The notes beneath the pieces are model-generated. The model had not been told where the DNA came from, did no database searches, and saw only the letters and a list, made by a program, of their open reading frames with translations. From the NCBI GenBank assembly GCA_019739335.1, contig CP073261.1, positions 2,036,001 through 2,100,000 of the forward strand: a DNA stretch of 64,000 nucleotides, in the 5' to 3' direction. Positions 19,574 to 31,653 of the stretch are shown here, in pieces (the stretch's first letter is position 1; the number at the start of each line of letters is the position of its first letter). The translations under genes were made by a program, and so were the position numbers. The stretch comes from Erythrobacter sp. (GTDB lineage Bacteria > Pseudomonadota > Alphaproteobacteria > Sphingomonadales > Sphingomonadaceae).

Positions 19574-19617
19574 AGTTAGTGCCGATTGCTGGCGTTGCGC
19601 AGGTTGCGTCGCTGTAG
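19570..19617 (+). pseudogene. Start of a truncated sixth operon gene
   Basis: An ATG overlaps the GMC stop by 4 bp (ATGA), exactly as at the other operon junctions, but the frame MKLVPIAGVAQVASL ends after 15 codons. The residues look like the start of a signal peptide or membrane segment. It probably marks a gene whose body was lost when the IS6 debris downstream was formed. The product cannot be identified; an electron-accepting cytochrome or transporter would fit the position. Confidence 0.4.
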
Positions 19618-20328
19618 AGAGCACCCGCGTTGCCACGGCAATGTCCGCTCTTAGGAACCACCGCGAGGTGGCGCTATGTCTTGAATAAGGGTGGGAAGCC
19701 TCGGCTCCGCTTTTAGGACACCAAAGCGAGAAAACAGACGCCTAGACGAGAAGCCGATCGGCAGCAAAGCGCCTTCGCTCGTGGCCAAAAGGCTGCGCTA
19801 TGAAGAGCGTCGCTTCTAGAGATGAGCGCCACCTGATCGACAGAGAAAACTACAAGACCTGCCCCTCGGTCGCCTTGGCCGAGTGGCAGAACCTCGTGGC
19901 ATAAGCCACACTGGGGAAGAGGATGGGTTCCCCAATCGGAGACGAGTTGCGGTTAGACTGACAGCACCACCAGATCTCCATAGGTTTCAATCATTTATGG
20001 TAATTTGATGCACTTATGCCCGCTGCGATGCCCACTTCTTGGTTGGCTCGCGGCGCATTTTAGCGCACCATGGCGCATTCGGCATGACGACCAATTCTGC
20101 AATGGGGGCCCGTTCTTGGGCAGAGCCGGACCCATTTGCTCCGCGAAATCGGCCGTTCAAGGGTTGCCTTCAAGTGCCTGAAGTTGGGCATTCAATCTGA
20201 TTGATTGGGATGGAGGCGGTGTTGGACCAGCCTGCTCGGCAGTGCACACCCATCTCTCTATTCGCTTTTATGTCGGAATTTCATTGCCAACCGGACTTGC
20301 GAAGGTTGAAATTTTTTCTCGACATGGA
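19618..20328. other. Accessory intergenic stretch with IS remnant
   Basis: No gene is supported. It contains short inverted repeats (for example near 19649-19663) and, at 19824-19969, the right end of an IS6-type element. The part at 19970-20320 shows nothing recognisable and looks like scrambled accessory DNA. Confidence 0.5.
19824..19969 (+). mobile_element. IS6-family remnant (right end only)
   Basis: About 146 bp matching the last part of copy A: GCGCCACCTGATCGACAGAG through the end GACAGCACC, including the non-coding tail GAGACGAGTTGCGGTTAGAC. The 5' part is missing. Orientation is the same as copy A, so the sugar operon lies between two directly oriented IS6 ends. Confidence 0.8.
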
Positions 20329-20353
20329 TTAAACGCGAAACCGCAAACGTTTC
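20329..20353 (+). promoter_or_regulatory. ECF-type promoter of the 20402 gene
   Basis: TTAAAC (20329-20334), a 13-nt spacer, then CGTTTC (20348-20353), preceded by GGA. The same hexamers at the same spacing occur upstream of 22110 and 23470. The expected transcript start is near 20360, giving a ~40-nt leader with a GAGGAG ribosome site. Confidence 0.7.
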
Positions 20354-20401
20354 CCTCGCACAGCTGCTGGCAGGCAGCGTCACCACAAGAGGAGAAATGC
20401 A

Positions 20402-20743
20402 ATGCCTATCACGAAGCTTGTTCTTGCACTCGGCATCCTTCCTTTGGCGACGGCGGTATCGGCAGCCGACATCCTTTACGAAGAGAGCATCGCGAGACAG
20501 GAAGAGCAGCGCATTATCGACAGTCCGATCGCCGGCATCGAGAACAGCCTGTGGTTCGATTACCGAATCGATATACTCGAAGCCCAAGAGGAGTTGGTGA
20601 GCGACCTGCGGAGGGCAAGCGATCTGGAGGACCAGCGCGACGTCTGGGAAGAATACGCAAACGAGTTATCCCACGAGCGACGCGATTACATAGAGGAAAT
20701 GGCCGAGCGCGGCTATCGCGATTTCACGATCACGATGGAATGA
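20402..20743 (+). CDS. Small exported helical protein (unknown function), ECF target
   Basis: 113 residues with a Sec signal peptide (MPITKLVLALGILPLATAVS, cleavage near AA-D). The mature ~90 residues are highly charged and predicted helical (EAQEELVSDLRRASDLEDQR, EEYANELSHERRDYIEEMAE), rather like a short periplasmic coiled coil. No family is recognised. It is a single gene with a strong Shine-Dalgarno (GAGGAG) and an intrinsic terminator immediately downstream. The ECF-type promoter upstream makes it a likely member of the envelope-stress set run by the neighbouring sigma factor. Confidence 0.8.
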   Translation: MPITKLVLALGILPLATAVSAADILYEESIARQEEQRIIDSPIAGIENSLWFDYRIDILEAQEELVSDLRRASDLEDQRDVWEEYANELSHERRDYIEEMAERGYRDFTITME

Positions 20744-20765
20744 TGCTGCGCCACTTGCGCAACTG

Positions 20766-20793
20766 AGAGGGGCCGGAGCAATCCGGCCCCTCT
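20766..20793 (+). terminator. Intrinsic terminator after the 20402 gene
   Basis: A 12-bp stem AGAGGGGCCGGA pairing with TCCGGCCCCTCT, loop GCAA, followed by TTTTG. It lies 23 bp after the stop and 36 bp before the end of the convergent anti-sigma gene, so it may serve both. Confidence 0.9.
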
Positions 20794-20828
20794 TTTGTGA
20801 CGACATTCAAATCGAACCCAAGTGGCCG

Positions 20829-21542
20829 TCACCGCCAGCCCGCCTCTCGCGCGGCACGCTCCTCTTCGCTATCGAGCGCGGGACCAGCGGCGCGTTCCTG
20901 GGCCAATGCGAGGATCTCCGCAGATCCAGCCATACGGTAATCCGTGCCGTCGCTGGCATCGCCTTCTCCGGTTGCCTCCAGTCGCCAGCCAGACGCGTCA
21001 CGACAGGCAAGGCCGCTGGCTTCGTTGGATGTGAAAGCCCGGCAGAATTCACCAGCCTCGGTTCGGAAAGACAGCAGGATCCGCGTTGGCGCATCGCTCT
21101 CCTGGTCGGCAACCAATCGGGTATCCAATACGCTGGCAAGCTGGCTATCAGCATAACCGGGCGGAGCGCCGCCGTCTTCACGCGGGAGAAATACTGCCAG
21201 GGCAAGGCTGGCGGCAAGCGCGGGGCCTGCAACCCAGCCCCATCGTGGAAAGCGGCGCCGTTCCAGCAACCGGTCTTTCGCGGCTGAGATGTCTATCACA
21301 GACGCGGAGCCATGGCCTTCGATCTGTCCCCCCTCTTTCAAGAGCGACATCAGCCGGTCGGGCACAGGACTCGCTGCAAGAGGTGCAAAGTGGGATGTGA
21401 GCTTTTGCTTGAGTGTCCTATGGGCTTCCACCTGTTCGCGCAGGTTCCCGTCGGCCTCCACAGCTGCAGCTATCTCCGCGGCGCGCTCACCGTGAATTTC
21501 GCCATCGGTCCATGCAGCGAGTTCTTCGCGGGAAATCGTCAT
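20829..21542 (-). CDS. Anti-sigma factor, single-pass membrane protein
   Basis: 237 residues. The N-terminal cytoplasmic part (MTISREELAAWTDGEIHGER, then about 70 residues) resembles the anti-sigma domain that holds ECF sigma factors. One membrane helix follows at about residue 100 (WGWVAGPALAASLALAVFL), then a ~110-residue periplasmic domain with two Cys (GEFCRAFTS, SGLACRDASG) that may form a disulfide. The ATG overlaps the ECF stop by 4 bp, so the two are translationally coupled. It probably sequesters the sigma factor until an envelope signal arrives; the lack of a clear HxxxCxxC motif argues against the zinc ZAS class. Confidence 0.85.
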   Translation of the reverse strand: MTISREELAAWTDGEIHGERAAEIAAAVEADGNLREQVEAHRTLKQKLTSHFAPLAASPVPDRLMSLLKEGGQIEGHGSASVIDISAAKDRLLERRRFPRWGWVAGPALAASLALAVFLPREDGGAPPGYADSQLASVLDTRLVADQESDAPTRILLSFRTEAGEFCRAFTSNEASGLACRDASGWRLEATGEGDASDGTDYRMAGSAEILALAQERAAGPALDSEEERAAREAGWR

Positions 21543-22027
21543 GCTGCATCCTTCAGCAGCGCCAGAAGCGCGTCGCGGCCCCTGACCAGCCGCGAATTAA
21601 GCGTTCCGACCGGACAGCCGACAATGACGGCCGCTTCCTTGTAGGCATAGCCTTCGACCATCACCAGCAAGACCGCCTCGCGCTGTTCCTCCGGCAGTTG
21701 TTGCAGGGCGCGATCGACATAGGAAAGTTCCATCACGGCTTCCTGCGGACCACAGCCTCCAGTATCGGCACCGGCATCTTCGGCTACGAAAGTGACATTG
21801 CGCCGGGTTCGCGTGCGGCATTCGTCTATCCAGCAATTGCGCATGATCCGATACATCCAGCTGTCGAGCCGCGTGCCGTCCTGCCACTTGTCGCGGTTAA
21901 CGAACGCACGCTCTATGGTTGTCTGGCAAAGGTCGTCCCCATCCGCAGGACTGCCCGCCAGCCCGGCAGCGAAACGACGCAGCCGGGGCAGGAGGTCAGT
22001 CACCTGCTCTTCAAATGATGGGTTCAC
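21539..22027 (-). CDS. ECF RNA polymerase sigma factor
   Basis: 162 residues from GTG 22027. Region 2 is LLPRLRRFAAGLAGSPADGD with TRLDSWMYRIMRNCWIDECR; region 4 is LQQLPEEQREAVLLVMVEGY with GCPVGTLNSRLVRGR. I prefer the GTG at 22027 over the ATG at 22078 for two reasons. GAGG lies 8 nt upstream (22036-22039 on the complement), and the putative autoregulated promoter at 22049-22073 would start transcription near 22042, inside the longer version. The gene is followed by its anti-sigma gene and is divergent from the S8 protease gene. Three flanking genes carry its likely promoter. Confidence 0.92.
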   Translation of the reverse strand: MNPSFEEQVTDLLPRLRRFAAGLAGSPADGDDLCQTTIERAFVNRDKWQDGTRLDSWMYRIMRNCWIDECRTRTRRNVTFVAEDAGADTGGCGPQEAVMELSYVDRALQQLPEEQREAVLLVMVEGYAYKEAAVIVGCPVGTLNSRLVRGRDALLALLKDAA

Positions 22028-22047
22028 TCGTTTTGCCTCTACGTGGA

Positions 22048-22073
22048 TTAAACGGCTGACACGCGCCGTTTCA
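22048..22073. promoter_or_regulatory. Bidirectional ECF-type promoter between sigma and S8 protease genes
   Basis: On the + strand TTAAAC (22048-22053), 13 nt, CGTTTC (22067-22072), pointing to the protease gene at 22110. On the - strand TGAAAC (22073-22068), 13 nt, CGTTTA (22054-22049), pointing to the sigma gene at 22027. Both directions use the same two hexamer types with the same spacing, so one near-palindromic site could drive both genes. Confidence 0.65.
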
Positions 22074-22109
22074 TCCATGCTTAATGGACTTTATTTCAAG
22101 GGACTGACA

Positions 22110-23366
22110 ATGCGTATCTGGTTCCTCCTCACTGCAGCGAGCTTTCTGCTCTATTCTTCTGCGTCAGCCAATGCACAGGTCGCAGTCGGCGATGTGCAAG
22201 TCGGCCTTCCGGGAACGCAACAACTGCCTGGCAGAGTTCTCGACCCGCTTTTGCAGGAGGCCGACAATCTGGAGCGCGAACTGGCACGGCAGGCGCTGGA
22301 CCTTGCGCGAGATCGGGTGCGGAGAATCAATCGTCTGGTCCGGCGCAATCAATCGCTGATCGAGCGCGATGCACGCGGCGAGCCCGCGCGGCGCGGAGAA
22401 TTGATGGTGATGGATGTCGATGCGCAAGCCATCTCTCGCGCCGAAACGGAAGGCTATCGGGTGTTGGGCCGGGAGCAGCTTGACGGGTTGGGGTTGGCAA
22501 TATGGCGCTTGGCGTTACCTCCCGGAGTGGAACTTGCCGAAGGTGAGGAACGCCTCTCCCGATTACTTCCCGATGCGACTATCGACCCCGACAACCTCTA
22601 TGAGCAGTCAGGCACTTCCCCTTCTGCGGGTCACAGTTTCTATCCGGTTCCAGAGCGGAGGCTGCAAGCCACTTCGGTGCGAGTGGGTATGATCGACGGA
22701 GCACCTGCATCCGGAACGGGAGTTGTGACGGTGCGCAGCTTTGCCGAGGGAGGAGGCGAGGCGAGTGATCACGGTAGTGCGATTGCCTCCTTGCTCCGCT
22801 CGGCTGGCGCGTCGCGGATCTATGCGGCCGATGTTTATGGCAGTGATCCCGCAGGGGGAAACGCGCTGGCAATCGTTCGCGCACTCGCCTGGCTGCATGA
22901 ACAGGGGGTGAGAGTGGTTTCTGTCAGCCTTGTTGGCCCGCATAACGCGATCCTTTCCCGCGCCATTCGCGGGGCGCACGCAAGCGGCATGGTTGTGGTG
23001 GCGGCGGTGGGAAACGATGGCCCGGCAGCTCCCCCCGCATATCCGGCGTCTTATGACGGTGTCGTGGCGGTGACCGCGGTAGACCGGCGGGAACGTGCAC
23101 TGATTGAAGCTGGCAGGGCCCTCCACCTTGATTACGCCGCTCCAGGCGCTGACATCTTCGCATGGAACCGGCGCGGAAGACAACAGCGCGTGCGCGGCAC
23201 GTCTTACGCAACACCGCTTGTCGCTGGCCGTATCGCGGTGGCGCTGGATGATGGCAGCAACTGGCGCTCCGTTCTGGATAGCGAGGCGCACGATCTTGGT
23301 CCTCGCGGACCTGATGAGACCTATGGCCGGGGTCTCGTTTGCCGGGACTGCGGCGCGGCGCGCTGA
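22110..23366 (+). CDS. Exported S8 (subtilisin-like) serine protease
   Basis: 418 residues. ATG 22110 begins a Sec signal peptide (MRIWFLLTAASFLLYSSASA) and lies ~30 nt after the predicted ECF transcript start. After a ~200-residue N-terminal region with charged helices, the subtilisin core shows the triad: Asp in VRVGMIDGAPA, His in EASDHGSAIASLL, oxyanion Asn in VVAAVGNDGPA, and Ser in RGTSYATPLVAGRIAV. It is therefore probably active, in the periplasm or outside. C-terminal Cys residues (GLVCRDCGAAR) could pair. ECF/anti-sigma loci sometimes control such proteases; whether it acts on the anti-sigma is unknown. Confidence 0.9.
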   Translation: MRIWFLLTAASFLLYSSASANAQVAVGDVQVGLPGTQQLPGRVLDPLLQEADNLERELARQALDLARDRVRRINRLVRRNQSLIERDARGEPARRGELMVMDVDAQAISRAETEGYRVLGREQLDGLGLAIWRLALPPGVELAEGEERLSRLLPDATIDPDNLYEQSGTSPSAGHSFYPVPERRLQATSVRVGMIDGAPASGTGVVTVRSFAEGGGEASDHGSAIASLLRSAGASRIYAADVYGSDPAGGNALAIVRALAWLHEQGVRVVSVSLVGPHNAILSRAIRGAHASGMVVVAAVGNDGPAAPPAYPASYDGVVAVTAVDRRERALIEAGRALHLDYAAPGADIFAWNRRGRQQRVRGTSYATPLVAGRIAVALDDGSNWRSVLDSEAHDLGPRGPDETYGRGLVCRDCGAAR

Positions 23367-23387
23367 AAAAATCTTTTTGCCGGTGAA

Positions 23388-23412
23388 TTAAACCGAGACA
23401 GCCATCCGTTTC
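23388..23412 (+). promoter_or_regulatory. ECF-type promoter of the 23470 gene
   Basis: TTAAAC (23388-23393), 13-nt spacer, CGTTTC (23407-23412), the third occurrence of the motif. It begins 21 bp after the S8 stop, so the 23470 gene has its own start of transcription. Confidence 0.7.
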
Positions 23413-23469: not shown

Positions 23470-24306
23470 ATGAAGATCATTCTTTCCGCCACCGCAGCCC
23501 TGGCAATTGCCATGTCCGCAACCCCGGCCTGCGCCCAGGTCCTCGGCGGCATCGGCGGAGGCGGCGGGCTCGGCGGCGCGCTCGATACCACGATCGGCGG
23601 CGTGGACCGCACCGTTCGTTCGACCACCGGCGGCGCGTTCGAGACGCGCGGCTCCACGCGCGGGAGAACGCGCGTTGATCGTCGCGAAGGACGGGTCGAA
23701 GCAGAGCGCAGAGCGGATGCCTCGGTAACCGGGGAAGCCGAACAGCTCCTGTCCTCACCCCTGGGCGATACAAGTGCGCAGGGCAGCGGTTCCGGCAGCG
23801 CCTCTGGCCAGGGCAGCGCTTCTGCCCAACTGATTGGCACGGACGCTGTTCGTGAAACCACCGCAGGCATCCGCAGCACTGCCACGGGCACCGTCGCCAG
23901 TGCCAGGGGCACGGCGAGTCGCGTAGCTCGCAGTGCAGGTGGCATTCCATCGGTCTCCGGCGGCGCCAGCGGCGAGAGCGAAGGATCGGGTAACGGCTCG
24001 GCGGATCTGGCGGGTCAGGCCCTTGCAGTTGCAGGCAGCGGAGCAGCAAGCGGAAATGGCGTGTTCGGGGTTTCGCCCGGCATGCCGGTGTTGTCACCCG
24101 ACGGTCGCCAAATTGGCGAGGTTCGCCAAATCGTGGCAGATCGTCGCGGCCGGGTAGAGTCCTTGCTTGTCAGCGCTGGCGACGGCCGCCGTATGGTGCC
24201 GGCCGGGAACTTCACCGCTGCTGGCAATGGTTTGATAATGGGCAGCGGCGAAGCTGGCGGAACTACCGGTTCCACTGCCGAACCGGAAGAAGAGAGCAAT
24301 CAGTAA
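23470..24306 (+). CDS. Exported low-complexity protein with C-terminal PRC-barrel-like domain
   Basis: 278 residues with a Sec signal (cleavage after ACAQ-type site near residue 23). The mature N-terminus is Gly-rich (GGIGGGGGLGGAL), followed by ~130 residues rich in Ser, Gly, Ala, Arg and Thr. The last ~80 residues (PGMPVLSPDGRQIGEVRQIV, GRVESLLVSAGDGRRMVPAG) resemble a PRC-barrel, a small beta domain found in photosynthetic reaction centres and stress proteins. It has its own ECF-type promoter and a downstream terminator. Function is unknown; an envelope or surface stress role is inferred only from its promoter. Confidence 0.8.
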   Translation: MKIILSATAALAIAMSATPACAQVLGGIGGGGGLGGALDTTIGGVDRTVRSTTGGAFETRGSTRGRTRVDRREGRVEAERRADASVTGEAEQLLSSPLGDTSAQGSGSGSASGQGSASAQLIGTDAVRETTAGIRSTATGTVASARGTASRVARSAGGIPSVSGGASGESEGSGNGSADLAGQALAVAGSGAASGNGVFGVSPGMPVLSPDGRQIGEVRQIVADRRGRVESLLVSAGDGRRMVPAGNFTAAGNGLIMGSGEAGGTTGSTAEPEEESNQ

Positions 24307-24341
24307 GCTCTAGCCAAAAACGCCAGTCTTCCTGTACTTGA

Positions 24342-24375
24342 GAACGGCTCCACCTGCTTGCTGGTGGGGCCGTTC
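24342..24375 (+). terminator. Terminator after the 23470 gene
   Basis: A 13-bp stem (GAACGGCTCCACC with GGTGGGGCCGTTC, one G-T pair) around an 8-nt loop, 35 bp after the stop, followed by TTC. It closes the ECF locus. Confidence 0.8.
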
Positions 24376-24537
24376 TTCAAACAGCCCGCTCCCTCAATGC
24401 CGCGCGCATGAAAGACGCCTCGACGCCGGTCATCTCTCGGCTCCCAAGTTGACCTCCGTAAAGTCCTGCATGCGGCCCTTCCTCCCACCTGGCCAAGCCC
24501 ATCCCGCACATCTTGCGAAGCCGATCAGAGGCTGTAA

Positions 24538-24551
24538 TGGTAGCGCTAACA
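24538..24551. promoter_or_regulatory. LacI-family operator-like palindrome upstream of GH9 gene
   Basis: TGGTAGCGCTAACA is a near-perfect palindrome around a central CG, matching the TGGTAGCGCTACCA-type operator common for LacI-family sugar regulators in sphingomonads and xanthomonads. It lies 27 bp before the GH9 start. No LacI-family gene is in the window. Confidence 0.55.
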
Positions 24552-24577
24552 GAAAATGGCGCGCGGGAGTGGATTGG

Positions 24578-27142
24578 ATGAAGCGAGGGAAAGCCTTGGT
24601 CCTGGCTGGACTGATACCGATAGTAATCGCGTCAACGGAAGATCAGATCGATCTGGCGCTGGACACCGAGCGTGAGTATTTCTCCGCAGCCGGACTGGAT
24701 GTAATCGTCTTTGACGACATCTACCCTGACGGGCACCAGACGGGAGTGACGATCATCCAACATGGTCGCCGCGTGGCGGCCAACGGCGATCTGCGGCTTG
24801 AGCCGGAACCGGGGCAGTGGTCACCCATGCCGGTTTCTGCCGGTGCGCGCACGGTCGATCCCGCCACGGGGACGATCACCCAGTCGTTGCGCTATCCGGA
24901 TCCCGCCAAGGATGGACACGGCTTCAATCCGATCTTCTATCCCGAGCTGGAACTTGACTACAGCGTCTCGGTTACGCCGGCCGGTGGCAATTCATTTCGT
25001 ATCACGATCGACCTGGCCGAGCCTCTCCCTGCTGAATGGGTGGGGCGGGCCGGCTTCAACATGGAGCTCTTTCCGGGCGAACTGTTTGGCCGCGCGTGGC
25101 TGATGGACGATGCCACAGGTCTGTTCAATCGCCAGCCTGAAGGTCCGTTGATCACGCTAGACGGCCCGCGTGTCGCGGTGCCGCGAAATGTGCAGATCAA
25201 CGGCCCCGTGCAGGATCCCAACGGTCAGGTGCTCGCAGCGCCACTGGCCACAGGGCAGCGCTTGACGGTCGCTCCCGAAGCGGCGATGCAGCGGATCGAG
25301 TTCCGTAACGTGGGGCCGGGCGAACTGCAGCTGATCGATGGCCGCTCGGCCCACCCCAACGGCTGGTTCATCGTGCGAACGCCGATCCCAGCGGGGGCGA
25401 CGGCAGGTGCGGTTGAGTGGATCGTTACGCCAACGACAGTGCCAGAATGGAGCTACGGCCCTGTCATTCAGGTGTCGCAGATCGGATATGCCCCGGCCCA
25501 GACAAAGCGCGCGGTGATCGAGCTTGCCCGTGGCAGCGCACTGTCGGGCGACGCGGTGCTTTACCGCCTCGGCGCCGATGGCCGGGAGATGGTCAAGGCA
25601 GCACCACCAGCGGTCTGGGGCGATTTCCTGCGCTATGACTATGCGCATTTCGATTTCAGCGATGTTACCCGGCCGGGGCTCTACGAGCTGGAATACGGTG
25701 GGACGACATCGCATCCGTTCCGCATCGATGATGCGGTTTATTCGCGCCACGCCTGGCAACCGACGCTGGAATATTTCCTGCCGGTCCAGATGTGTCACAT
25801 GCTGGTGAACCAACGCTACCGGATCTGGCATGGCCTGGACCACCTCGACGATGCCCTCATGGCCCCGGTCTCGCTCAACCATTTTGATGGTTATGTGCAA
25901 GGTGGTTCGACGCTGACCAGCTTCCAGCCGGGTGATGTCGTTCCAGGCCTCGACCGCGGCGGCTGGCACGACGCTGGCGACTATGACCTGCGCGTCGAAT
26001 CACAGATCGGCACCACCTACATGGTGGCCAAGATGGTGGAGGAATTTGGCCTCGACTACGATGCAACCACGATCGATCAGGAGCGCCGGGTGGTCGAGAT
26101 GCACGATCCCGACGGGACGAATGACGCGATCCAGCAGATCGAACACGGTTTGCTGAATGTTCTTGGCGGGTACCGCGCGCTGGGCCGCCTGTACCGGGGG
26201 ATCATCACCCCGAGCCTGCGTGCCTATGTCATGCTGGGGGACGCGGCCAACCACACCGACAACGAATTCCGGCAGCCGGTCGATGGCCTGGGTCTTGACG
26301 GCAACGGCGATCCGATCCTCTGGGACGACCGCTGGGTCTTCACGGAGGACAACCCCGATCGCGAACTTTTTGTGGCCGGCGGGCTTGCTGCTGCGGGGCG
26401 GGTGATGCGCGCGCATGGATCGCCGCTGGGACAAGAGGCGATCGATGCGGCGGAAGCGATCACGTCACTTGCCTTCGAGCGCTCCGACAATGTTTCCAAC
26501 CAGACATTCGCATTGGCCGAGTTGGCCCAGGCGACCGGCGATCCCCTTTATATTGCTCAGCTCACAGCCATGGAGCCAGCGATCCTTGCAGACGTGGCGA
26601 ACAGTGCCTGGAGGCTCGCCTCGATCGAGGAGCGTTTACCGGAAGGGTTCCGCCAGCGCCTTGCCGCCGCGGTCGCGACACATCAGCTGGTGGTTGAAGC
26701 AAGTGCGCGAACGGATAGCCCTTACGGAGTGCCGTACGAACCCGAAATCTGGGGCGCAGGGTGGACCGTCCAATCGCTTGGAGTGCGTCAGTGGTTTTTT
26801 CACAAGGGGTGGCCGCAGGCGACTTCGCGCGAAAGTTTTCTCAACGCGCTCAACTTTGTCCTCGGCGTGCATCCAGGCGAGAACCACGAGAGCTTTGTGT
26901 CGGGCGTGGGTGCCGACTCCCCCACTGTCGCTTATGGCGTAAACCGTGCCGACTGGTCGTATATACCAGGCGGCGTGATCTCCGGGACCAACCTGGTTCG
27001 GCCGGACCTGCCCGAGTTGAAGGAGTGGCCATTCTTCTGGCAACAGGGAGAGTACGTCATGGGTGGGGGAGCGACCAACTACATGTTCCTCGCTCTGGCG
27101 GCCGATGCGCTTTACCGCGCCGGGGAAGGCAGCATTGATTGA
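24578..27142 (+). CDS. Glycoside hydrolase family 9 (cellulase-type) exported enzyme
   Basis: 854 residues from ATG 24578, which gives a signal peptide (MKRGKALVLAGLIPIVIAS). Residues ~20-300 are a beta-rich region of unknown family. About 300-395 is the N-terminal Ig-like domain typical of GH9 (PVIQVSQIGYAPAQTKRAVI, FRIDDAVYSRH). From about 400 comes the (alpha/alpha)6 catalytic domain. DRGGWHDAGDYDLR holds the catalytic base Asp pair. HPGENHESFVSGVG and WQQGEYVMGGGATNYMF are the C-terminal blocks, with a candidate acid Glu. It would cleave beta-1,4-glucan-type or related polysaccharides outside the cytoplasm. The LacI-type operator upstream fits sugar induction. Confidence 0.9.
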   Translation: MKRGKALVLAGLIPIVIASTEDQIDLALDTEREYFSAAGLDVIVFDDIYPDGHQTGVTIIQHGRRVAANGDLRLEPEPGQWSPMPVSAGARTVDPATGTITQSLRYPDPAKDGHGFNPIFYPELELDYSVSVTPAGGNSFRITIDLAEPLPAEWVGRAGFNMELFPGELFGRAWLMDDATGLFNRQPEGPLITLDGPRVAVPRNVQINGPVQDPNGQVLAAPLATGQRLTVAPEAAMQRIEFRNVGPGELQLIDGRSAHPNGWFIVRTPIPAGATAGAVEWIVTPTTVPEWSYGPVIQVSQIGYAPAQTKRAVIELARGSALSGDAVLYRLGADGREMVKAAPPAVWGDFLRYDYAHFDFSDVTRPGLYELEYGGTTSHPFRIDDAVYSRHAWQPTLEYFLPVQMCHMLVNQRYRIWHGLDHLDDALMAPVSLNHFDGYVQGGSTLTSFQPGDVVPGLDRGGWHDAGDYDLRVESQIGTTYMVAKMVEEFGLDYDATTIDQERRVVEMHDPDGTNDAIQQIEHGLLNVLGGYRALGRLYRGIITPSLRAYVMLGDAANHTDNEFRQPVDGLGLDGNGDPILWDDRWVFTEDNPDRELFVAGGLAAAGRVMRAHGSPLGQEAIDAAEAITSLAFERSDNVSNQTFALAELAQATGDPLYIAQLTAMEPAILADVANSAWRLASIEERLPEGFRQRLAAAVATHQLVVEASARTDSPYGVPYEPEIWGAGWTVQSLGVRQWFFHKGWPQATSRESFLNALNFVLGVHPGENHESFVSGVGADSPTVAYGVNRADWSYIPGGVISGTNLVRPDLPELKEWPFFWQQGEYVMGGGATNYMFLALAADALYRAGEGSID

Positions 27143-27914: not shown

Positions 27915-29165
27915 TTCACAGAAGGAAACTAGCCTCCGCCAAGTTGACCGTGCCGTCCAGCCGGATGGCGTAGTCGGCGAGCGCGTCGCCATCGACGTCC
28001 ATGTAGACCATCGTGTTGGCGCCAACGTGCGCCCAGCGCAGTTCGCCCGCCGTTCCGGAGAAGGCATCGCTGCCGATGTAATCGAAGGCATCGTCTGTGC
28101 CGCCCAGGATCGCATCGACTGCGGACAGATCGATCCTGTCACCCTGCGCCACGGTGAAGTCGGTGATCCGGTCGGCGGTGTTGGCCGCCAGTCCGGCAAA
28201 GTCGCCGTCAGCGAAAGCGAACACGTCTGCGCGGAGGCCGCCGGTCATCACATCGCGGTCCGCCCCGCCGATCAGCCGGTCCACCCCGTCACCGCCGTCG
28301 AGAATGTCGGCCCCGTCCTCGCCGTGCAGCGTATCCATGTTCGCTTCGCCGAGCAGCGTATCATTGCCGGTGCCCCCATAGATGACATCGTTGCCGATGC
28401 CGCCCAGGATCAGGTCATCACCGCCATCGCCGTGGAGAGTGTCGATATTGGTGCCGCCGTTGATGATGTCATTACCTTCGCCGCCATGGATGGCGTCCTC
28501 GCCGAAGTTGCCAACCAGCCGATCAGCCCCGGACCCACCGTAGATTGTGTCGGCCGTGTTGCTGCCATAGATCGTATCATCGCCATCGAGCCCGGAAAGC
28601 GTCGCGCCGGCACTCCCGCCGTAGATCCGGTTGGCCAGCGCATTGCCGGTGCCCACCGTGGCCAGGGTTCCGGCCAGCCGCAGGTCCTCCAGGTTGGCGC
28701 CAAGGGTGTAGTTCACGCCCGAGCGGACATAGTCGATCCCTTCGCCCGCCAGTTCGACAATCACGTCACCTGCTTCGTAGACGAAATAGCTGTCGTCCCC
28801 GCCGCCGCCGCGCATCTCGTCATCGCCCGATCCGCCGTTCAGGAGATCGTTTCCGGCCCCGCCCAAAAGCAGGTCGTTGCCGCCAAGAGCGTTGAGCAGG
28901 CTACCGAGCGTGGCATTGGCGACGAGTTCGTTGGCCAGCTGGTTGCCGCGCAACTGGGTGGCCAAACCGGCGAGGCCGAACGCTTCGATGTTGCCATATC
29001 GAGAAGGGTTCGCGGAGAAATCGATCGAGCTGATGATCCGGTCGAACCCCTCGTTCTCCAGCTCCGTTACAACGTCACCGATGCTGTCGATGGAGAAGGT
29101 GTCGTTGCCCAGGCCACCCACCATCGTGTCACTGCCGGTGCCGCCGTCGAGTGTGTCGTTGCCGC
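27915..29165. repeat. Long direct repeat, copy 1 (RTX C-terminal module)
   Basis: About 1251 bp matching 54356-55606 at a constant offset of 26441 bp; reading both copies I found one difference (29111, G against T, giving Leu or Met). It covers the last ~416 codons of the RTX gene and stops one base beyond its stop codon. Flanking sequence is unrelated on both sides. Confidence 0.95.
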
Positions 29166-31653
29166 CGAGGCCGTAAAGCTGATCGTTGCCGGCACCGCCA
29201 TCGATCAAATCGTTGCCATGTTGATCGATTGACAACGGCAGGGAATCGCCACGTAGAAAGTCATCCCCTGCTTCGCCGTAAAGTTCGTCGTCGAATGCAC
29301 CGCCTTCGATAGTGTCGTTGCCGTCCCCACCGTAAAGGAAGTCATTGCCCGCAGCCCACTCCATGTCGAGCGTGTCGCCGCCGATTATGTCGTCTCCCGC
29401 ACCGCCGTAAACGATGTCCGATCCATAGGCACCGCCGAGCCGGTCGTCGCCCGCGCCGCCATGCAATACATCATTGTCCTGCCCGCCGTCGATGACGTCG
29501 TTTCCTGAGCCCCCGCTAGCAAAATCGTTCCCGTGGCCAAGCGCAAGGGAGACGTTGCCAAAGTATCCAGCCCCGATCACCACATTGTCGGCCACACTAC
29601 CGAAGAAGGAGCCGACAATCGTCTCTGTTTGTAGGAGCTCGAACCCGGTCACACTCATTCCATTGACTGTGCCGGTGCCGCCGTCCCACAGCAGCGTAAG
29701 ATCCATGTTTAGCGCAACGCCGAAGGCTGCTTCGCCCAGCGCGATGCTCAGGGTATCAGTGCCGGTGCCGCCATCCGCCGTGCCGGTGCCAAGGGGTCCG
29801 AGCGTGATGGAATCGTTGCCGTAGCCGCCGAGCAATTCGTTGATCCCTGCACCTGCGAAAATCGCATCGTTGCCTTCGCCGCCGTTGAGATAGGCAGAGC
29901 CGTCCGCACCGATCAGCATATCGTTGCCAAGGCCCGCGTCGTTGACACCGGCACTGCCTGACGTGCCCGCGCCCAGATTGATGACATCGTCCCACTGCGT
30001 TCCATAGATGCCGATGACGGATTCGAATCCGGTGACTGTCCCGCCGTTGACGCTGCCGAAGCCGCCGTTCCACATCCCGGTGAGATCGATGGTAAAGGCG
30101 GTCGTTCGGGCAAAGGGACGGATATCCAGCGAATCCGTGCCAATGCCGCCATCGGCAAGATTCACGGCATTGCCGCTAAAAACAACATAGTCGTCCCCGC
30201 TGCCACCATTTATGATGTTAGTTCCGTCGCTATCCTCGAAATAGTCATTGCCGCCATCACCGTTGAGAGTGTCGTTGCCGACCATTCCGTACAGCGTATC
30301 ATTGCCGTTGCCGCCGTTGATGGTATCATTCCCATCACCGCCATCGAGCCGATTGTTGCCATTGTTGCCGCTCAACACATTACCCACGGAATTGCCGTAG
30401 CCATCGATGTTGGCGAAGCCGGTGAGGGTCAGGTTCTCAAAATTGTCCGCGAGGTACCAGTTGAGCGAAGCCAGCACGGTATCGGTGCCTTCACCAGCCA
30501 ATTCGGTAAGCGTGGTGGCGAGGTTCTCCACCGCATAGTTATCATTGCCGATGCCGCCGATCAGGACATTGGTGCCCCCACCACCGGCCAGTGTATCGTT
30601 GCCCACGCCGCCTTCGACGTAATCGTTGCCGAGGCCGCCAGTGTAGCTGTCATCGCCGCCGAGCAGCCGCATCGTCACCGCCCGATCGAAGGCCGCTCCG
30701 AACACCACCGTGTCATTGTGCTCGGTGGTCTGGTTGAAGAAGGTGTGCAGCGTTTCGAAGCCGGAGATACTCACGCCGCCCACGTTCCCGCTCATGCTGG
30801 TGCCGATGAAGTTCAGCGATATGGAAACGCCAGCCGCGGCGGCAACAAGATCGAAGCGCAGATGGTCTGTACCGATGCCTCCATCGGCCGAACCGCCCGT
30901 CATCGCGCCAAGCATCACGATGTCATCGCCGTCATCGCCATACAGATTGCCGATCCCGTCGACATCGACCAGCGTATCGTTTCCATTGCCGCCGCTCAGC
31001 CAGTCGCTGCCCAAGCCGCCGACAAGCGTATCGTTGCCTTCCTGGCCTTGCAGGTCATCGTTGCCCGCACCACCGCTCAGTGTGTCGTCACCATTTCCGC
31101 CAATGCCGCTATCATTGCCGTCGCCAAGTTCCACCGTCACGGCGGAGTCGTAGAATCTGCCAATCACGACTGTGTCGTTAAGCACGCTACCGATAATCGG
31201 CCCGCCAAGTATTTCGAAATCGCTCACGGTGGCGCTGCCGATCGAGGCGCTTAGTCCTGCCCACAGGAACGTAAGATCGGCCGTTACGCCGCTGGAAGCG
31301 AGCGTGAAATCCAGCGTCAGCGTGTCGGTGCCGCTGCCGCCATCATATATCGTGCCGAGCCCATCCCGTACGATAAGCGTATCATCGCCGTCGTCACCAA
31401 ATGCGCTGTCTCCGCCTTGGACGACCATGGTGTCGCTGCCGTTCCCGCCCGAGAGCTGGTCGGTGCCGTCGCCGCCATCAAGGATATCGTCACCCTCGCC
31501 ACCGTCGAGTTCGTCGTTGCCTGCGCCGCCCAACAAAGTGTCGTTGCCGTCAAGGCCGATAAGTACATCGTCCCCGTCCAGCCCCTCGATCGTGTCCCCG
31601 GTTCCGGTTCCGGAGAGGACATCATTATCCGGAGTCCCCGTGATATCCGCCAT
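27916..31653 (-). CDS. Large RTX (hemolysin-type calcium-binding) secreted protein
   Basis: 1245 residues without a signal peptide, starting MADITGTPDNDVLSGTG and made almost wholly of RTX nonapeptides (GGxGNDxLxG), which fold into calcium-loaded beta rolls after type I secretion. Between RTX blocks lie four related ~70-75-residue modules, at about residues 108-180, 261-332, 505-575 and 632-705. Each opens with GGxGTD and holds a VSGFE-like turn (for example SVTGFELLQ). No catalytic domain is recognised. Residues ~830-1245, including the C-terminal secretion region (ending AEASFLL), are the same as in the serralysin at 54357. No type I secretion genes are in the window. A GGGGGGAG ribosome site precedes the start. 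Confidence 0.9.
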   Translation of the reverse strand: MADITGTPDNDVLSGTGTGDTIEGLDGDDVLIGLDGNDTLLGGAGNDELDGGEGDDILDGGDGTDQLSGGNGSDTMVVQGGDSAFGDDGDDTLIVRDGLGTIYDGGSGTDTLTLDFTLASSGVTADLTFLWAGLSASIGSATVSDFEILGGPIIGSVLNDTVVIGRFYDSAVTVELGDGNDSGIGGNGDDTLSGGAGNDDLQGQEGNDTLVGGLGSDWLSGGNGNDTLVDVDGIGNLYGDDGDDIVMLGAMTGGSADGGIGTDHLRFDLVAAAAGVSISLNFIGTSMSGNVGGVSISGFETLHTFFNQTTEHNDTVVFGAAFDRAVTMRLLGGDDSYTGGLGNDYVEGGVGNDTLAGGGGTNVLIGGIGNDNYAVENLATTLTELAGEGTDTVLASLNWYLADNFENLTLTGFANIDGYGNSVGNVLSGNNGNNRLDGGDGNDTINGGNGNDTLYGMVGNDTLNGDGGNDYFEDSDGTNIINGGSGDDYVVFSGNAVNLADGGIGTDSLDIRPFARTTAFTIDLTGMWNGGFGSVNGGTVTGFESVIGIYGTQWDDVINLGAGTSGSAGVNDAGLGNDMLIGADGSAYLNGGEGNDAIFAGAGINELLGGYGNDSITLGPLGTGTADGGTGTDTLSIALGEAAFGVALNMDLTLLWDGGTGTVNGMSVTGFELLQTETIVGSFFGSVADNVVIGAGYFGNVSLALGHGNDFASGGSGNDVIDGGQDNDVLHGGAGDDRLGGAYGSDIVYGGAGDDIIGGDTLDMEWAAGNDFLYGGDGNDTIEGGAFDDELYGEAGDDFLRGDSLPLSIDQHGNDLIDGGAGNDQLYGLGGNDTLDGGTGSDTMVGGLGNDTFSIDSIGDVVTELENEGFDRIISSIDFSANPSRYGNIEAFGLAGLATQLRGNQLANELVANATLGSLLNALGGNDLLLGGAGNDLLNGGSGDDEMRGGGGDDSYFVYEAGDVIVELAGEGIDYVRSGVNYTLGANLEDLRLAGTLATVGTGNALANRIYGGSAGATLSGLDGDDTIYGSNTADTIYGGSGADRLVGNFGEDAIHGGEGNDIINGGTNIDTLHGDGGDDLILGGIGNDVIYGGTGNDTLLGEANMDTLHGEDGADILDGGDGVDRLIGGADRDVMTGGLRADVFAFADGDFAGLAANTADRITDFTVAQGDRIDLSAVDAILGGTDDAFDYIGSDAFSGTAGELRWAHVGANTMVYMDVDGDALADYAIRLDGTVNLAEASFLL

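Follow-up and report, generated by a model that had tools for sequence, protein, structure and literature searches.

The window analyzed here, a stretch of 64,000 nucleotides from Erythrobacter sp. (contig CP073261.1, positions 2,036,001 to 2,100,000), carries the gene of a predicted extracytoplasmic function (ECF) sigma factor and that of its putative anti-sigma protein, divergent from the gene of an S8 protease and surrounded by three copies of one promoter-like motif. This locus raises the question of which genes the sigma factor serves, and whether a single intergenic site could serve the genes on both of its sides. We propose a one-locus ECF regulon in which a palindromic 34-bp site between the sigma and protease genes is likely read in both directions by the sigma factor, and in which two one-way copies likely drive the genes of a PRC-barrel-like and a small protein; we give this reading a probability of roughly 80%. 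A previous reading made from the letters of the window (the sequence-only reading) had already suggested a small single-locus ECF regulon. The conserved motif is indeed confined to the locus, but that reading missed the two-faced middle site and, with it, the sigma operon as a fourth predicted output beside the protease, PRC-like, and small-protein genes. The features of the locus are as follows, in window coordinates (N12 and N13 denote spacers of 12 and 13 nt).

22044..22077, no strand assigned: inverted repeat TGGATTAAACG-N12-CGTTTCATCCA (34 bp), 10 of 11 arm positions pairing; a superimposed, predicted bidirectional sigma promoter
22045..22071, plus strand: protease-ward promoter-like element, -35 GGATTAA at 22045-22051, -10 CGTTT at 22067-22071
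22050..22076, minus strand: sigma-ward promoter-like element, -35 GGATGAA at 22076-22070, -10 CGTTT at 22054-22050, 22 nt before the GTG
20326..20352, plus strand: one-way site before the small gene, GGATTAAAC-N13-CGTTT, from motif searches and sites in relatives
23385..23411, plus strand: one-way site before the PRC-like gene, GAATTAAAC-N13-CGTTT, from motif searches and sites in relatives
20402..20743, plus strand: small charged protein, 113 residues, predicted to be exported and helical; no family above cut-off; alignment of 30 sequences
20829..21542, minus strand: putative anti-sigma gene adjoining the sigma gene, 237 residues; a helical portion in the cytoplasm, a single predicted membrane helix, and an outer domain that holds the Cys pair C167/C180
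21539..22027, minus strand: ECF sigma factor, 162 residues; probable GTG start at 22027, the open frame reaching 22078
22110..23366, plus strand: S8 (subtilisin-type) serine protease, 418 residues, predicted to be exported; PF00082 at E 6.8e-19, subtilisins in the PDB
23470..24306, plus strand: PRC-barrel-like protein, 278 residues, predicted to be exported, with a Gly/Ser/Ala-rich middle; alignment of 36 sequences

The motif TTAAAC-N13-CGTTTC is present at 20329-20353, 22048-22072, and 23388-23412, exactly where the sequence-only reading had placed it and with N13 in each case, and none was expected from 100 dinucleotide shuffles of the window. The distances from the end of the 25-bp site to the start codon (ATG at 20402, 22110, and 23470) are 48, 37, and 57 nt, in agreement with the range of 35 to 60 bp given there. 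That reading had also suggested a search of the whole genome, which consists of one contig of 3,220,578 bp (3.22 Mb) and is the source of all whole-genome motif counts below. TTAAAC-N12..14-CGTTT has three matches in it, all at this locus, while the reversed control pattern has two. With up to two mismatches, 42 sites were obtained genome-wide versus 114 for the control; there is no excess and therefore no sign of further targets in this genome. One of these 42 sites was the minus strand of the middle site (site 2), which led us to its mirror-image organization. A single site with one mismatch lies beyond the locus, at G000:C1:1746554-1746578 on the minus strand.

A middle site with two faces

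The middle site conforms to the consensus TGGATKAAACG-N12-CGTTTMATCCA, that is, to two complete elements exactly overlapping on opposite strands. For its conservation we turned to 199 genomes of the family, which were searched for protease relatives (found in 55 of them at E<=1e-20) and for GRATKAAAC-N13-CGTTT. The window and 20 long loci fetched from family genomes form the first locus set, and an alignment of 22 proteases (A1; the window plus 21 of 29 relatives' loci) served as the query for fetching named loci. The best 80 of 428 named loci make up the named set, and all middle-site counts use the window plus these 80 (n = 81). Named loci come from Erythrobacter, Qipengyuania, Novosphingobium, Sphingopyxis, Sphingobium, Sphingomonas, and others; because some organisms (e.g., L120 and G103) are common to both sets, the first and named sets are not independent.

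Scored on the plus strand out of 15, the N13 element is found in all 81 sigma/protease intergenic regions with a score of 13 to 15, as expected from the sequence-only proposal that motif and spacing would be kept in related loci. At a looser threshold applied to both strands (at least 12 of 14 letters of GGATTAAAC-N13-CGTTT), it is present on both strands in 81/81 regions and in 0/1620 shuffled ones. Other spacings at this threshold matched on the plus and minus strands in 19 and 41 of the 81 regions (N12), 13 and 20 (N9), 9 and 6 (N8), 6 and 1 (N11), or 0 and 1 (N14), and N10 and N15 to N20 gave no matches. Since neighboring spacings are partly reached, what can be said firmly is that only N13 occurs in every region.

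The half pointing toward the sigma gene is also kept. It is complete (GGAT or GGAA plus CGTTT at N13) in 81/81 loci including the window, and its -10 most commonly lies 21 to 24 nt before the start of sigma homology (37/81 regions; median, 26). This bears on the idea that only the protease-ward promoter is active and that the mirrored half blocks another promoter of the sigma gene, which would amount to negative self-control. In the available passages on HrpL, such an arrangement is described: HrpL-polymerase at the divergent hrpJ promoter represses hrpL (PMC5263251). However, blocking would need no mirrored -35 and -10, and in the window 22 nt separate the end of the sigma-ward -10 from the start codon of the sigma gene. 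The hrpL promoter is, moreover, of the sigma54 type according to the same passages, and no sigma54 promoter search was made here. We therefore consider negative self-control unlikely.

How far the symmetry extends sets the middle site apart from the one-way sites. We scanned 107 regions before PRC-like and small genes, 102 of which have a site scoring at least 11 of 15; the other 5 were dropped from the comparison. AAC counted in the score for both kinds of site, and TCC of the right arm played no part in picking sites. Arm pairing amounts to 8 to 11 of 11 positions at 81/81 middle sites versus 1 to 7 of 11 at the one-way sites (Mann-Whitney p 9e-32, a nominal value), and left-arm AACG and right-arm TCC, which only a promoter on the opposite strand would require, are each present at 81/81 middle sites versus 9/102 one-way sites. 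Similarly, the opposite-strand half is found at all 81 middle sites and is absent from 93 of the 102 scored target-only sites. The double promoter-like element is thus found only where there is a gene on each side. If the site is read both ways, AAACG would owe its conservation there to its role as the opposite strand's -10.

These counts also speak to the more trivial explanation that the symmetry is accidental, AAC and CGTT being partly complementary, and was simply kept by recent common descent. AAAC is in fact complementary to GTTT, and the short pattern is matched on both strands by sites 1 and 2 of the window, yet the outer arms match at the middle site alone, as TCC illustrates, and the AAAC end itself drifts in one-way sites. 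In addition, other families, whose sigma factor is about half identical, retain the site, and both arms changed together in Sphingopyxis. An accident of this kind seems hardly credible to us.

The two faces of the site may differ in the fifth letter of the -35. Given as protease-ward/sigma-ward, the 81 loci show G/G in 37 cases, T/G in 28, G/T in 7, T/T in 4, A/G in 3, and A/T in 2; the window itself has GGATT on the protease-ward and GGATG on the sigma-ward side. This mix leaves room for a built-in bias, though not for a general one.

One-way sites and the sequence probably read by the sigma factor

The one-way sites indicate which letters matter. In a background comparison of 105 named-locus regions, a score of at least 11 was reached in 100, compared to 11 on the opposite strand and 22 of 525 shuffles; for a score of at least 12, the corresponding counts were 82, 1, and 2. 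One-way sites retain G(G/A)ATTAA and CGTTT, and have the C of AAAC in 52% only. Because GGATTAA and CGTTT are kept and the AAAC end drifts, we place the -35 at GGATTAA, 22 bp from CGTTT start to start. This arrangement resembles the EcfG form GGAAC-N16-CGTT (PMC7083833) as well as the general AAC/CGT pattern of ECF promoters (PMC8103513). Of the ECF-type pair in the sequence-only reading, the -10 CGTTT is thereby upheld, while TTAAAC as the -35 has to give way to GGATTAA.

With its 11-bp arms, the middle repeat has the usual look of an operator, and it could be taken for the binding site of an ordinary dimeric regulator, the other sites being weaker operators and the likeness to an ECF promoter being secondary. 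The one-way sites argue for a promoter instead: they keep the left element (-35) plus CGTTT (-10) and lose the outer right arm, in 93/102 cases. The variant GGAAG likewise occupies both middle-site arms, whereas at the PRC site it is found in the left element alone. Furthermore, we recognized no regulator gene besides sigma and anti-sigma among the five genes of the locus, and the -35 part covaries with a residue of the sigma factor. We regard a dimer operator as quite improbable.

This covariation ties the predicted promoters to the sigma factor encoded beside them. Sphingopyxis has GGAAG as its -35, at the PRC site in the left element and at the middle site in both arms, and position 4 is the same in the middle and PRC sites in 68/71 loci. 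Across 80 sigma factors, Ala occupies position 148, within the region 4.2 helix predicted to read DNA, at 15/15 GGAA loci and at 0/65 GGAT loci; with six rows added (86 in total), Ala is found in 17/18 GGAA versus 0/68 GGAT rows. Residue 148 is probably the counterpart of F175 of E. coli sigma E, which contacts the -35. In the comparison of 80, the two groups are set apart by many other residues as well, because most GGAA rows belong to one clade. In a tree of the sigma factors, whose bootstrap is not settled and which has L229 on a long branch, GGAA has four origins (the starred branches alone also force four), three of them with Ala and one, L227, with Leu. Judged from these alignments, the joint change of the -35 and residue 148 links the motif to this sigma factor better than position alone, and it lends itself to testing how the -35 is recognized by ECF factors.

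Distribution among relatives

The organization of the locus is widely kept. The sigma and anti-sigma genes are divergent from the protease gene in 21/21 loci (the window plus 20 long loci), where tblastn detected the PRC-like gene in 20/21 and the small gene in 13/21. GRATKAAAC-N13-CGTTT is present in 51/199 family genomes with 113 matches (hand tally). As many as 107 of these are at the S8 locus, in 46 genomes; 2 make up a palindrome in G143, on a short contig where no S8 gene was detected, and 4 are elsewhere (G040, G122, G189, and G192), which equals the count of the reversed control (4).

Broader samples comprised 396 genomes of the order and 385 genomes drawn over the class. The whole-palindrome pattern GGANNAAACG-N12-CGTTTNNTCC was found in 93/396 genomes of the order, and the control gave none. 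A stricter palindrome pattern hit 4/385 class-wide genomes, namely, the window's own and three from two other families, and in these three the palindrome is flanked by the same sigma, anti-sigma, and protease genes, the sigma factor being 47.5 to 59.4% identical to the nearest query. A second copy exists in some genomes: in G111, a GGAA-type palindrome lies at a distant paralogous sigma/S8 locus (L229), two palindromes are present in each of G071 and G714, and G851 has four on several contigs.

Several observations weigh against the proposed reading. Activity of the middle site in both directions is itself a prediction from sequence, and p values are nominal because the rows are related. Among the 107 regions before PRC-like or small genes, 5 have no site scoring 11, a score attained on the opposite strand in 11/105 regions. 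The link to residue 148 is weakened by L227, a GGAA lineage with Leu instead of Ala, and by L171, which is counted as GGAA with the sigma-ward arm alone changed. The GRATKAAAC form is not at the locus in 9 of the 55 S8-positive genomes (G007, G013, G041, G042, G050, G111, G113, G122, and G167); for G042, G111, and G122, a looser search found a variant palindrome, in G111 at a second, more distant S8 copy. Finally, L230 to L234, distant S8 loci with the same divergent layout, have no such palindrome, nor did a search of these loci for an inverted repeat of other sequence give any above shuffles; the mirror site therefore belongs to a subgroup. By eye, some intergenic regions of L230 to L234 contain GGGAATA-like stretches, which may be separate promoters of another ECF type.

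Proposed circuit and its genes

In the circuit that we propose, the anti-sigma protein would hold the sigma factor at the membrane until a signal from outside the cytoplasm, perhaps sensed through a Cys pair of the anti-sigma protein, frees it. The sigma-polymerase would then bind the 34-bp site in either orientation as well as the two one-way sites. From the middle site, the output would be either the sigma/anti-sigma operon or the divergent S8 protease gene, and the protease, the PRC-like protein, and the small protein would act outside the cytoplasm; the protease might possibly act on the anti-sigma protein. Positive self-control is common among ECF sigma factors, and we infer that this regulon, too, would be self-amplifying through its sigma-ward promoter. 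Because both promoters occupy the same DNA, one polymerase on the middle site would exclude the other, and self-amplification and protease output would share one binding site. An extension of this idea, to which we would give even odds, is a one-seat switch: each binding event would be spent on either sigma/anti-sigma or the protease, fixing their ratio and limiting runaway self-amplification, with T or G in the -35 arms setting the bias. Envelope stress is a plausible role, given the predicted exported products and the predicted membrane anti-sigma protein.

We compared this locus with known systems as described in the available parts of the respective papers. Bidirectional sigma70 promoters of E. 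coli consist of pseudo-symmetric DNA that can hold RNA polymerase in two orientations. For these promoters, too, mutual exclusion has been argued, with competition setting in when one direction is strongly activated (Warman et al. 2026, PMC12825309). Pseudo-symmetric DNA and, by prediction, polymerase in two orientations are what the middle site has in common with them. The shared symmetric part is the -10 there, however, whereas here the mirroring takes in both boxes over 34 bp, the predicted reader is an ECF sigma factor, and one output would be its own operon; activity was measured there and is predicted here. With autoregulated ECF operons (PMC8103513), our locus shares a sigma factor of regions 2 and 4, a putative anti-sigma gene in the operon, predicted positive self-control, an AAC-like -35, and a CGT-like -10. 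It differs in that the autoregulated promoter is superimposed on a target-gene promoter and that the exact sites of its own genome are all in one locus. The HrpL/hrpJ pair (PMC5263251) resembles it in having an ECF sigma gene divergent from a target and in the influence that sigma-polymerase on the target promoter has on the sigma gene, but hrpL is repressed and has its own sigma54 promoter, and the promoters are adjacent there, not mirrored on the same bases. EcfG promoters of Sphingopyxis granuli (GGAAC-N16-CGTT; PMC7083833) share the -10 CGTT, a similar start-to-start distance (21 bp there, 22 bp here), and the divergent genes of a regulatory locus in related bacteria. In contrast, the -35 is GGAAC there and GGATTAA here, 79 putative operons there compare to one locus here, and a NepR/PhyR partner switch takes the place of the predicted membrane anti-sigma protein. 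Comparing the motif with EcfG-type GGAAC sites in the window's genome was uninformative, since a loose pattern gave 97 matches versus 192 for the control.

A literature search, covering titles and the starts of abstracts among the papers listed and with most subscription papers beyond its scope, yielded nothing on a mirrored ECF promoter or this locus, and the passages retrieved from PMC9304148, PMC3073932, and PMC6180224 concern other subjects. Set against the known systems, the locus stands out by the mirroring of both boxes, a site kept across bacterial families, and the sigma factor's own operon as one of two predicted outputs. If active, it would be a minimal natural circuit of one shared site and five genes, without further targets found in this genome, and it would allow the competition of the two polymerase orientations to be measured directly. 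It also brings together, as one unit, an anti-sigma family and two uncharacterized families of predicted exported proteins.

As for the gene products, homology of the sigma factor in relatives begins at the GTG. The protein has regions 2 and 4 only, joined by a short linker (Sigma70_r2 at residues 9-76, r4_2 at 103-154), scores 68.3 bits with TIGR02937 sigma70-ECF (cut-off, 42.9), and has the solved ECF relatives SigH, SigE, and SigW; the NCBIfam equivalog and subfamily models shown for it score under their cut-offs. The putative anti-sigma gene overlaps the sigma gene by 4 bp and is beside it in the loci examined. Its product has no Pfam match, and the NCBIfam anti-sigmaE model hits it at E 0.035, below the cut-off. 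C167 and C180 are invariant in 48/48 aligned sequences (the window plus 47 of 77 extracted), and in a structure model (mean predicted local distance difference test [pLDDT], 85.9) they lie on the neighboring strands 166-172 and 175-181, so that a C167-C180 disulfide is possible. The model of the small protein has three helices (mean pLDDT, 84.6). PDB fold searches with these two models gave no match at E<=0.001, and therefore no function is read from the folds.

The assignment of the S8 protease by the sequence-only reading stands (PF00082). The catalytic residues D196, H221, N302, and S365, which include the Asp, His, Ser triad (D196, H221, S365), and a C-terminal CxxC (C411 and C414) are invariant in 22 aligned sequences, and the translation of an S8 relative in L194, from another family, is without the CxxC. 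A redox or disulfide signal is a possible link between this CxxC and the Cys pair of the anti-sigma protein. The PRC-barrel assignment is less secure, PF05239 matching at E 8.6e-4 with 19.7 bits, below the Pfam cut-off of 21.2. The small protein, the protease, and the PRC-like protein have signal-peptide-like N termini, as judged by eye, from which their export is predicted.

On the upstream side, about 750 bp (19574-20325) without a convincing gene separate a GMC oxidoreductase gene from the first site. Next after the PRC-like gene, a plus-strand gene at 24338-27142, not directly preceded by an exact site in the three-site search, encodes a cellulase N-terminal Ig-like domain (E 1.3e-7) with a weak glycosyl hydrolase family 9 match below the cut-off. 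Further downstream, an open frame of 1245 codons on the minus strand (27916-31653) is, in translation, full of GGxGxD-type repeats that resemble calcium-binding RTX repeats.

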